A DNA stretch of 64,000 bases from Ianthella basta (lineage: Eukaryota; Porifera; Demospongiae; Verongiida; Ianthellidae): contig OZ025881.1 of assembly GCA_964019415.1 (NCBI GenBank), positions 6,405,024-6,469,023 on the forward strand, written 5' to 3'. Position 1 is the stretch's first letter; each line of letters opens with the position of its first letter. Shown piece after piece: positions 32,044 through 51,797 of this stretch. The translations under genes and the position numbers were made by a program. The notes beneath the pieces were generated by a model. The model made no database searches, was not told the origin of the DNA, and saw only the letters and a list, made by a program, of their open reading frames with translations.

Positions 32044-32208
32044 ATGGCTCGAACGAAGCAGACAGCGAGGAAGTCGTCTGGAGGCAAAGCTCCTCGGAAG
32101 ATGATGGCATGCAAGTCAAAGAAGCAGTTTCGCCAGTTCATGTTAGGACAGCAGGCAGCGACGTATGGTGGCGTTAGTTCTGACGCGCCTCAGCAGACCT
32201 CCTACCTG
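32044..32208 (+). other. H3-tail exon, copy A
   Basis: A 55-codon first exon that encodes the H3-like tail. The start context GGGACAATGGC is good and Ala2 would expose A1 after Met removal, as in H3. R2, T3, K4, R8, K9, S10, K14, R17, K18 and K23 of H3 are all present. After position 18 the sequence departs from H3 and has no histone fold. A normal donor (CTG|GTTAGT) follows. Confidence 0.85.
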
Positions 32209-35200
32209 GTTAGTTGCTCCAGCGTGGAGCTCTGCATTCTGTCGAATACTTGAACCTTGCAGTGATCGGTCTGGGTTCTACACTTGTAAAGTTATCGGAG
32301 TTTAGAGTTCATTTATCTTCTCTACTCTCATTGTGCATAGTTGTGTTTAATGTAGTGAAGACCTCATTTCAGTCGAACCACTGTCAACACTACTAGGTCT
32401 TCCACGTAGGGTAGCATAATGACTGCGCACACCAGTGACGGACTGTATGCCACCGTAGGTACATAAGAGTTTTGTCCGGCTCACACATCTGTGCGACATC
32501 TCCTCTCCTTGTTGTTCCCTCCCCTCCATCTCCTCCTCCCCCTCTCTCTCCTCCCTCCCTCTCACCCTCCCTCTCCTCCCCTTCCCTCTCTTCCCTTCCC
32601 CCCTCCCTCTCCCCCCTCCCTCTCCCCCTCCCTCTCCTCTTTCCCCATCTCTCTCCCAGAATTATGAGAACATGTTCTACTCCTATGACTTCCACACTGG
32701 ACCAAAGGCAACCAAACGGTTTGAGCCACGTTTCACATCTGGTGCTGGTGTCAACCCCACCTCGAAGCAGAAGGAGCACTGGGTGGGGATGAGCCTGTGC
32801 TCAATGTATGATGGAGAGGGAATGAAGGAACACGGGCGCCCTCACCTCAACCTTGTCGTTGGTATGCACAGCATATGTACCTCTAAAGTGGTAGTGGAGA
32901 GAGGGAGTGGTGATGCGGGGTACAGTATGGGATGGTGTGTGTGTGTGTGTGTGTGTGTGTGTGTGTGTGTGTGCGTGCGTGCGTGTGTGTGTGAGAGAGA
33001 CCCAACTCCTAAGCCCTCTCTCTTTCAGTGTTGGACATCTCTGGGTCTATGTTGTGGCCGATGTCCAAAGGAGATGGCCCTTCCACCACCAAGATTGATG
33101 TTGCCAAGCAGTGTCTCCACACACTGTGTGATCAGCTGAAAACAAGGTACTGTCAGGAACAAGTCCTTCAAGAATAGGGAAAACCTTTTGATTGATGTCT
33201 TTATATGAAATAGTTTATCTGAAGTTATAAAGCTCCAAACAAGCGGCCATTTTACAATTGTACACTGTTGCCATGGTGACGCCTGTGTGGCATTGAGGGT
33301 GAACAGTTCCCATTGCCCCTCCAACCTACAGTGACTCTTTTGGTCTGGTGAGATTCAATGAAGTTGCTGATGTTCACTGTAAGATGACCCCTTGGAAGCA
33401 GGTGGGTACACACACACATACACACACACACACACACACACACACACACACACACACACACACACACACACACACATACACACACACACACACACACACA
33501 CACACACACACACACACACACACACACACACGAGATGTTGAAATGTGGTGTGCTGGTGTTGCGTGCATGTATGCATATATACACCGAATGAGTTGGAATG
33601 GATGGAATGTAGAATGGATGCATTTGGGAAGGCACTAATGCTAGAGTAGCCGACTGCTAAGTGTAATGCCCAGTTAGCCGGGCCAGTCTATGCAGTAGAC
33701 CACTGCAAGGAGGATCTATTGCTTCAGCTTAGTGTTGAGGTCATCCCCTTTTGTTAATACAAGCATAGACACTAGTATCTGTGATACAAATCTTTGAGAG
33801 GCGGCCTCAGCTTCGCCCTGCTGCGATCCTCGAGCATGTGTCTCCGCAGCTGTAGATCATCCGCATGCCACCCAAAACGACTTGAACCGGGGGCTGCAGA
33901 TCTCATCGTGGCAGAGGGCCAGCTGCAGATCGGACGATGCTAAACACCTCTCATTGGCACCTGTTTACTCTGTACTGTTGTTGGCGTGTATTTTATAAGT
34001 AGTCAGTCATCTGTGATACAAAGAGTGATTCTGTCTCAGTCACTTCCGATTGTCATTTTATATACGTATTAGTGGCCGGAAGTGGGCCGTGGCCGAGACT
34101 AAGCGATCCAGTGCTCCCAAAATACTCTTATGCACTGTAATTTCATAGAAGCTCATTGCTACGGCATTGATAGGACTGGGCAAATTATCTCTGCTACGTG
34201 ATGGCTCAAGAATTTGCCCAGTCTTATGCACTATCTTCTTGCAGCTGTCCCATCTTGTAGAGGTTTATGTATCGCGGATTCCGTGTGTGCTTGCTTGTAT
34301 AGGTGAAGAAGAAGAATCTGAAAGATGGAATCTCCAACTTGATGGCTGGTGGGGCGACAAACCTCTCTGCTGCAATAGACTGTGCGACAGAGCTCATCCA
34401 GAAAGCTCGTGAGGCCTGGGGAAGTCTTGGGTCACTTGAGGCAGTTTGGGTGCCATCTGTCTGTCTGTCTGTCTGTCTGTCTGTCTATCTGCTGTGTTTG
34501 TTTGTACCATTTGTGCTATATTGCCTTTTCTCTACACATGTACACATGCCACTAAACAAATTTACATGTTTACGCACACACACATGTACATATAAACATA
34601 CACAATGACAATACTACATGCATGCACACGCTCACTCACACACTTTCAGCTGAAGCTGCAAACACGACGAACCGCATCATCTTCTTGACTGACCTCCAGT
34701 CAACGTGTGACACCGCCAATGATGAGAAGAGGCTCCTCAGCACCATTCGCAGCAACGCAGATGCAGGGATCTACACCACTGTGGTGGGCATTGGAATGGT
34801 ACGTACGTACGTCTGGTTTAGTGTTAACAGAGCTGTCACTGGGTTTGGTGACACTCTAAGCAGAGCTGTCACTGGGTTTAGTGACACTCTAAGCAGAGCT
34901 GTCACTGGGTTTAGTGAGACTGTAAGCAGAGTTGTCACTGGGTTTGGTGACACTCTAAATTGAGCTATCACAGTGTCTAGTGACACTCAATATCAGTAAC
35001 TGGTCAGGCTGTCCCACCTACATCTCTCACAGGACCTTAACGTGCGTCTGGTTGAAGACATCAGTAAGACACGAGGCGCCAAGTACTGCAGTGTCAGCAA
35101 CAACGCAGAGTTTGCTCGCATCATGAACAAGGTACGTACACTGCTCACCTCATACTCTGCTGATGTCACCAGCTCATGCATGGCACTCCTCAGCGGTTGC

Positions 35201-51400: not shown

Positions 51401-51797
51401 TGTACCCAAGAAACAACCAGCTAACAGAACACAGACTGGACCACCAACTGCTGCTGTAGGTGGTGTGAGAAGATCAACTCGAAAGCGTCAGGCACCTCCT
51501 ATGGATCCAGCAACTTCTTCAGCTCCACCGAGCAAGAAGGCAAGCACATCAAGGAGCAAGACAACAGCCAAGGTAGCATCCAAAACGAGGACCACTACTG
51601 CCAGGAGCACCCGATCCACTGCTGCAAAGAAGGCCCCAGCCAACCCGGGGCCACGACCCAAGGTAGGTAAGAAGGCAACAGCTGTAAGCAAGTCCAAGGG
51701 AAAGTTCCAATCAAAGGGAAAACCCACAACCAAAGCTAGTAAGAAGCCACAGCAGCTGGTCAAGACTACTCGAAGAAAGAAGATGGGGAAGCAATGA
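45413..51797 (+). CDS. H3-tail / vWA / basic-tail protein, copy C
   Basis: Fifteen exons in unbroken phase, 699 aa: 45413-45577, 45795-45839, 46209-46410, 46640-46757, 46943-47012, 47958-48063, 48340-48488, 48756-48854, 49001-49086, 49410-49500, 49566-49634, 49742-49819, 50032-50150, 50656-50716, 51156-51797. The H3-like tail is identical to that of copy B (T11, P17). The vWA MIDAS is intact (DVSGSM, then ATNLS replaced by TTNLS, and LTDLQS). The acidic patch is shorter and SSFFQWF replaces SSSTQWF of copy A; the basic tail is otherwise the same. This copy has the most diverged 3' introns, with about 250 bp of unique sequence near 50200-50450. Between copy A and copy C the long protein is kept open over every exon, which argues for function. 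Role unknown. Confidence 0.85.
48525..48684 (+). repeat. 33-bp repeat in intron 7, copy C, 5 units
   Basis: Same unit as in copies A and B; five units here. A (TCTG/TGTC)n tract of about 60 bp in the preceding intron (48113-48180) is also longer than in copies A and B. Confidence 0.9.

Follow-up and report, generated by a model that had tools for sequence, protein, structure and literature searches.

Imitation of histone H3 by non-histone proteins is already known. SNAG-domain proteins, GFI1 among them, carry a stretch with a loose resemblance to H3 on zinc-finger factors, and PAF15 and Stella/DPPA3, which act with UHRF1, are short mimics; such short mimics are internal or partial motifs. Published precedents are an N-terminal non-histone peptide of the SNAG protein SNAIL1 in the H3-tail pocket of LSD1 (PMC5663869, PMC10940100), and H3-like peptides of G9a, influenza NS1 and the BAZ2B linker that bind H3 readers (PMC5663869). 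CDAN1 (codanin-1) sequesters ASF1 through helices that imitate a helix of H3 and not its tail (PMC11911400). Here we describe three tandem genes, copies A, B and C, within a 64,000-nucleotide stretch of the genome of the sponge Ianthella basta (contig OZ025881.1, positions 6,405,024 to 6,469,023; hereafter the window), whose products join the first ~17 residues of H3 to a scaffold of a vWA domain with a probable beta-sandwich and helical part. Unlike SNAG, the tail matches H3 near letter for letter over 17 residues, and its carrier is a vWA scaffold that in many relatives also bears an E3 ubiquitin ligase (E3) domain; unlike the short mimics, it starts at A1, spans K4 to R17, descends from H3 and is old. 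Among the papers listed by full-text searches of open-licence literature, none reports a vWA protein with an H3 tail, a description elsewhere being possible. We consider it probable (roughly 0.6) that the genes represent an old eukaryotic family in which the tail acts as bait for a reader or modifier of the K4 side of H3, often in an E3-linked protein.

The original prediction, made from the letters of this DNA, held that each of three genes opens with an H3-like tail, continues into a vWA domain with an intact metal-ion-dependent adhesion site (MIDAS), lacks a histone fold, encodes a product of about 75 kDa and belongs to no described family. These points stand, save that copy B loses its reading frame (below). 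The tails read MARTKQTARKSSGGKAPRK in copy A and MARTKQTARKSTGGKAPPK in copies B and C (Table 1). Pfam assigned VWA_2 (PF13519, E 9.1e-15) and VWA (PF00092, E 2.5e-14) to copy A and found no histone fold (PF00125) in it; the MIDAS residues DxSxS, T and D are present in the read-outs of all three copies, and the computed masses of copies A and C agree. In every copy exon 1 is 165 nt long, closes in phase 0 with a GT donor behind it, and encodes MARTKQTARKS-S/T-GGKAP-R/P-K followed by MMACKSKKQFRQFMLGQQAATYGGVSSDAPQQTSYL. Compared with the H3 tail ARTKQTARKSTGGKAPRK, the sole difference over residues 1-18 is T11S in copy A and R17P in copies B and C. H3 chains of the PDB were matched by phmmer over residues 1-28. 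A chance match is ruled out by the 17-18 residue length, by conservation in relatives and by the PDB matches. In two relatives the H3 match is longer, reaching about residue 42 in P0117 (APTAGGVRKPHRYR) and including additional H3 sequence in P0073 (PHRYRPGSVALREIRR), so that the tail descends from H3, an ancestry that we regard as well shown. Because B and C share the same exon 1 to the letter, the three copies do not count as independent lines of evidence; those come from other species.

Three protein searches were run with queries that all contain the tail: copy A against 5.8 billion proteins (best 120 of 954 matches listed), residues 1-72 of the protein from Oscarella (best 120 of 1264, hits of ~313-996 aa only) and a third query (best 120 of 1749). 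Among the matches listed, the best named relatives are from Corticium candelabrum, Oscarella lobularis, Oopsacas minuta (Hexactinellida) and Sycon ciliatum, all four of which start with MARTKQTARKS-T/S-GGKAPR. Corticium and Oscarella are homoscleromorphs and Sycon is a calcarean, so the four span three sponge classes; the genome of the window, which falls next to them, may represent a fourth. The combination of tail and vWA domain, predicted to be worth seeking in other sponges, extends beyond them: it occurs in Rotaria and Adineta (bdelloid rotifers), in the fungi Endogone, Cladochytrium and Jimgerdemannia (the last with a tail altered from K9 onward), in the chlorophyte Cymbomonas tetramitiformis, in the rhizarian Chlorarachnion reptans together with Amorphochlora and Bigelowiella (both chlorarachniophytes; Bigelowiella is identified by its entry name, Bigna1), and in many transcriptome and metagenome proteins. 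These holders rule out a sponge-only novelty, and the taxonomic breadth suggests an early eukaryotic origin, unless transfer between lineages spread the family. As to a viral carrier, a query of eight closely related rows gave 73 pattern matches in viral contigs and no relatives, a comparison in which only near kin are detectable.

A DxSGSM MIDAS is present in 176 fetched proteins and in copies A and C. Of these 178, 116 carry the tail, or 114 when the two window copies are excluded, and 102 of these 114 start at the tail's own methionine. The 63 proteins that fail the tail pattern comprise 62 with DxSGSM and P0006, which is truncated; for 58 of the 63, the tail set is no nearer than six named prokaryotes. 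A lipobox-like N-terminus is present in 25 of the 62 tail-less vWA proteins, against one of 114 tail proteins (P0004). The 102 new matches listed in the Oscarella 72-residue search divide, by pattern, into 92 with a histone-fold motif and 10 with a vWA domain, with no third kind among them. Several entries holding both tail and vWA domain are transcripts by name (P0009 (GILJ), P0011, P0013, P0018 (Trinity), P0057, P0224, P0227, P0229 (MMETSP)), so the two parts are joined in mature mRNA of relatives. The closest relative among the matches listed, P0001 (53% identical, 702 aa), comes from a contig no longer than 2,296 bases, which its coding length almost fills, leaving little intron space and suggesting a transcript contig. 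The predicted junction of exon 1 with the vWA exons is thereby borne out for the relatives; for I. basta itself it is predicted by the gene model. The opposite, C-terminal end of P0009 (GILJ01004994) finishes in RKQTARKQTARKQTARKGR, a repeated H3-like KQTARK string.

In the alignment of 48 relatives, the MIDAS residues D132, S134, S136, T209 and D240 (P0002 numbering) are invariant. A U-box was matched in 17 of the 48, zf-C3HC4_3 in six and zf-C3HC4 in three, sets that may overlap; in many relatives the U-box or RING lies at the C-terminus. Neither RING nor U-box was found in copy A by Pfam or in the sponge-type rows P0001, P0002 and P0005. The histone fold is also absent from the 16 Pfam families matched by the 48 relatives. 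The C-terminus of copy A carries a net charge of +48 over 179 residues. It had been described as Lys/Ser/Pro-rich and H1-like; it is indeed basic, with an abundance of K, R, T, P and A, but Pfam reported no linker histone H1 winged-helix domain for copy A at E up to 1. As the likeness to H1 is one of composition only, membership in that family was dropped. Basic C-termini had been expected in all three copies and are intact in A and C; copy B is frameshifted.

The scaffold of vWA domain and probable beta-sandwich and helical part is common to the family and to prokaryotes. We kept 79 prokaryotic loci with a homologous vWA domain and following region (Chloroflexi, Methanothrix, Haloarchaeobius and others); they differ in lacking the H3 tail, which was not found in their six-frame translations, where one unrelated ARTKQ occurs in locus L010. 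Foldseek ranks ArnAB first for the body, under a title that calls it an archaeal ortholog of the Sec23/24 core motif (E 1.4e-18, 17% identity, TM 0.36/0.53, rmsd 9), so the scaffold may be Sec23/24-like; VIA-align rows of the body mainly cover 118-316. Sec23/Sec24 have a zinc ribbon and a gelsolin domain, and neither they nor ArnA/ArnB are known to have an H3 tail or E3 domain. No zinc-ribbon or gelsolin family surfaced in the Pfam scans of copy A or the 48 relatives, in which no search was aimed at them. Plant RGLG and WAV3 are E3 ligases that combine a vWA-type domain with a RING. The RING or U-box of the window proteins' relatives is a likeness to them, and its absence from copy A a difference; ligase activity of the relatives is predicted from domains. 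Copine (PF07002) and Vwaint (PF14624), the families of RGLG and WAV3, are absent from the 16 families matched by the 48 relatives, and neither RGLG nor WAV3 is known to have an H3 tail.

Conservation of the tail far exceeds that of the body. The 109 full-length tail members were dereplicated at 60% to 64 rows, over which pairwise identity averages 0.973 for H3 residues 1-8, 0.873 for 9-17, 0.375 for 18-28, 0.382 for the vWA domain and 0.244 for the C-terminal tail, with the tail-defining pattern itself partly fixing residues 1-8. Restoring P0230 and P0256, two members that fail the pattern (66 of 111 rows), gives 0.937, 0.847, 0.369 and 0.383 for the first four regions, so the contrast between tail and body (0.937 versus 0.383) survives the pattern bias. 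Across the 114 tail proteins, R2 and Q5 are kept in all; A1, T3, T6, A7, R8 and G13 in 113; S10 and G12 in 112; K4 in 111; and R17 in 108. Other lysines are looser (K9 97, K14 99, K18 78, K23 34, K27 22). An acidic residue falls within residues 1-18 in two of the 114 members.

We built a body tree, leaving the tail out, from 79 rows chosen among the fetched proteins. It was computed by a quick method with SH-aLRT support only and includes long branches and rows of odd composition, mostly metagenome or transcriptome entries; P0006, P0008, P0266 and P0267 were excluded, and P0230 and P0256 were scored as tail-less. The 67 family rows (65 with the tail) make up a single clade (SH-aLRT 100), separate from 12 outgroup rows of prokaryote type that lack the tail, four of which are named bacteria or archaea and the others taken as prokaryotic. 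The six sponge-type rows (window, P0001 and the four named sponges) form one clade (SH-aLRT 98), and the bdelloid rotifers group with other rows, not with sponges. The tail requires three changes on this tree, the number expected if it was gained once and decayed twice, in P0230 and in P0256. Parsimony counts for the 65 rows with the tail show that H3 residues 1-8 changed 1, 0, 1, 3, 0, 1, 1 and 0 times (7 in total), S10 once, G12 and G13 never, A15 once, P16 four times and R17 three times; K9, T11, K14 and K18 changed 9, 13, 11 and 21 times. Body columns changed a median of 24 times over 366 columns, 23 of which changed at most once. The fixed set is A1-R8, S10, G12, G13 and A15-R17; apart from K4, lysines vary more freely. 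These comparisons show well that the tail is under very strong selection.

The initiator methionine of a Met-Ala start is normally removed, and because most members start at the tail's own methionine, the family would present a free A1. Residues 1-8 of H3 are the part gripped by PHD fingers, K4 methyltransferases and K4 demethylases, several of which need the free A1 amine. In the mechanism that we propose, a free A1-R2-T3-K4-Q5-T6-A7-R8...R17 tail would be displayed away from the nucleosome and would dock in an H3-tail pocket gripping the free N-terminus and the K4 side. Candidate partner types are PHD readers, COMPASS-type writers and KDM1/LSD1- or KDM5-type erasers; docking would compete with H3 or recruit the partner. 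In U-box and RING lineages, the partner or nearby chromatin may then be ubiquitinated. In sponges, where the E3 module is absent and the basic C-terminus is probably nuclear, the protein would serve as decoy or adaptor. A tail fixed as far as R17 with K9, T11 and K14 free fits a long pocket that would read the backbone and the K4 side and need no marks at K9 or K14. LSD1-CoREST is one candidate partner; its footprint may match the pattern of fixed and free positions.

Several points weigh against this proposal. Partner binding, localisation and modification are predictions from sequence, as are the acetylation or methylation of the tail and the DNA binding by the basic C-terminus suggested in the original prediction, and vWA bodies are common in non-nuclear proteins. 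Five of the 63 proteins failing the tail pattern are nearer to the tail set than to the six named prokaryotes: P0230 (an MMETSP entry with 13 members) and P0256 have decayed tails (MGYCKKTLRRSAGGRAPAK and MGKGKQSLRKGYDG) and, as family members, show that the tail can be lost; P0008 and P0266 retain part of the H3 tail behind another start; and P0006 is truncated. The foraminiferan Reticulomyxa filosa has a vWA protein (P0267, 325 aa) without the tail, not nearer to the tail set than to prokaryotes, and tail-less eukaryotic members may be under-sampled because all search queries contained the tail. The E3 part is not universal, since the checked sponge members lack it, as do 17 of the 43 tail rows among the 48 relatives, a count that assumes no row belongs to both the U-box and the RING set. 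Three of the 114 members (P0117, P0228 and P0232) have R at K4, so K4 methylation is not needed in all.

In a more specific form of the proposal, which we advance tentatively and hold to be plausible rather than probable, a widespread and possibly very early eukaryotic regulatory system would have mounted the H3 tail on an E3 ligase of vWA type. Proteins that recognise K4 and the free N-terminus of H3 would thereby be captured and ubiquitinated, or else titrated. Most familiar model organisms would have lost the system, and sponges would have kept it without the ligase. The strongest competitor, still unlikely in our view, takes the tail as a regulatory switch: H3-modifying enzymes (a K4 methyltransferase, Haspin- or Aurora-type kinases at T3 and S10, acetyltransferases) would mark the protein itself and so set its activity or location. 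The near-invariance of the modifiable T3, K4, T6 and S10 and the predicted disorder of the first ten residues are compatible with a switch, but K9 and K14 are replaced 9 and 11 times on the tree, so that the function common to the family cannot be modification of these two lysines, and three members carry R4. Moreover, A1, Q5, A7, G12 and G13, which are not modifiable, are as fixed as the modifiable residues, so that recognition fits better than modification.

A second competitor is that the tail folds back on its own vWA and sandwich body as an autoinhibitory or structural element, which we rate as quite improbable. Predicted structures offer a hint of it: in the AlphaFold model of P0002, residues 11-20 have a mean pLDDT of 70 with one strand residue at position 9, and that of P0056 places a short strand at 4-6, where pLDDT is for the most part below 50. 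The bodies are confident, yet block-mean pLDDT is only 42-46 for residues 1-10 (P0002) and 1-20 (P0056). With acid so rare within residues 1-18, the tail offers the MIDAS metal no Asp or Glu, and occupation of the MIDAS by the tail was dropped because that acid is almost never present. A private intramolecular site would also not demand a letter-for-letter match to H3 on a body at 38% identity.

Repeated fusion or gene conversion from H3 genes could in principle keep the tail identical without function, since H3 genes are numerous and conserved and the match is letter for letter; this is less probable again. A search of the 209-Mb assembly with exon 1 returned the three copies and at least four H3 genes (71% over 28 residues), and a search with the vWA body only the three copies and three distant frames, each among the best candidates scored, so that further H3 genes or vWA frames may exist. 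Three of the four host H3 genes read as complete 136-aa H3, and an intron interrupts the fourth. In codons 1-18, exon 1 differs from these four by 8-10 synonymous codons and one non-synonymous codon, and the host H3 genes differ among themselves by 3-12 codons. The 8-10 synonymous differences exclude recent copying of the tail from H3 genes of the same species and count against conversion, as do the sharp drop in identity past residue ~17-18, beyond which H3 is not followed, and the fit of a single gain to the body tree. The distant vWA frames, three in number and 21-30% identical to the body, lie on another contig (G000:C13:6223261-6241034). That exon 1 belongs to another transcript and is never joined to the vWA exons is hardly credible: the join in I. 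basta is predicted by a gene model, but the same join recurs in relatives of many lineages, several of them transcriptome entries by name, and P0001 has almost no room for introns.

The three genes share one 14-exon layout on the + strand (Table 1). All 39 introns of the models are GT..AG, which is no independent check, as the exon-placing patterns already demanded GT/AG. Exon 11 of copy B is 76 nt long against 78 nt in A and C; these two missing bases cost copy B its reading frame, so that the vWA domain is still read and the basic C-terminus is out of frame. Two of the three copies (A and C) are intact, or else copy B carries an assembly error. In each of exons 1-5 only 0-2 bases separate B from C, and in exon 14 a single base of 657 separates A from B; this pattern suggests that the copies have exchanged sequence. 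A comparison of A with C over exons 1-13 gives 14 synonymous and 17 non-synonymous codon differences in 471 codons. Intron 6 holds a minisatellite that is much longer in copy B (~17 units, counted by eye).

Table 1. Positions of the gene copies, their parts and other features in the window.
Feature	Position	Strand	Description	Basis
Copy A	32044..37904	+	14 exons; 689 aa, 75.5 kDa	gene model, splice sites, computed mass
Copy A exons 1-7	32044-32208, 32660-32861, 33029-33146, 33332-33401, 34303-34408, 34650-34798, 35033-35131	+		gene model
Copy A exons 8-14	35278-35363, 35623-35713, 35779-35847, 35959-36036, 36231-36349, 36703-36763, 37248-37904	+		gene model
Copy A H3-like tail codons	32044..32100	+	MARTKQTARKSSGGKAPRK	sequence, gene model, codon comparison
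Copy A exons 3-7	33029..35131	+	most of vWA domain (Pfam match residues 119-296); MIDAS DISGSM, T, D	Pfam, alignment
Copy A exon 14	37248..37904	+	end of helical part and basic C-terminal tail	gene model, composition
Copy B	38353..44964	+	same 14 exons; exon 11 = 43060-43135; first stop at residue 407	gene model, splice sites
Copy B H3-like tail codons	38353..38409	+	MARTKQTARKSTGGKAPPK	gene model, codon comparison
Copy C	45413..51797	+	14 exons, open to end; 684 aa, 75.1 kDa	gene model, mass, splice sites
Copy C H3-like tail codons	45413..45469	+	MARTKQTARKSTGGKAPPK	gene model, codon comparison
Intron 6 minisatellite	34810-34970 (A), 41500-42060 (B), 48510-48690 (C)		unit ~33 bp	
MOSC-domain protein	2365-3132	+		
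Prenyltransferase alpha-subunit repeat exon	6054-6491	+		
SNF2 helicase exon	17308-17796	+	PF00176	
Tubulin-family gene	30501-31895	-	single exon; PF00091	
Dynein light intermediate chain exons	60955-62862	-	PF05783; E 7.4e-26 at 60955-61269, 0.0065 at 62437-62862	

The start of the tubulin-family gene and that of copy A lie ~150 bp apart, and the two genes run in opposite directions; with divergent starts this close, they may share a promoter region. Around the SNF2 helicase exon, frames at ~10.6-25 kb may belong to a CHD-type remodeller, which would lie a few kb from the H3-tail genes. Downstream of the array are the exons of a dynein light intermediate chain, whose last exon we place by eye, as a guess, near 52.3 kb. 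Pfam gave no family for the frames at 10647-13331, 28155-28925, 23143-23688 and 14363-14863 or for one 140-aa frame, and a PDB search of 23143-23688 gave no match.

If the tail does act as bait, the H3 tail would be a module that cells use off chromatin, with the H3 N-terminus from A1 past K14 carried by a non-histone family of animals, fungi, a green alga and Rhizaria. The fixed (K4 side) and free (K9, K14) positions would then amount to a mutational scan done by nature, showing which residues an H3-tail pocket requires and which pockets deserve attention first. Where H3K4 marks are studied in these organisms with antibodies or peptides, the family protein, which is ~75 kDa here, may be picked up as well.

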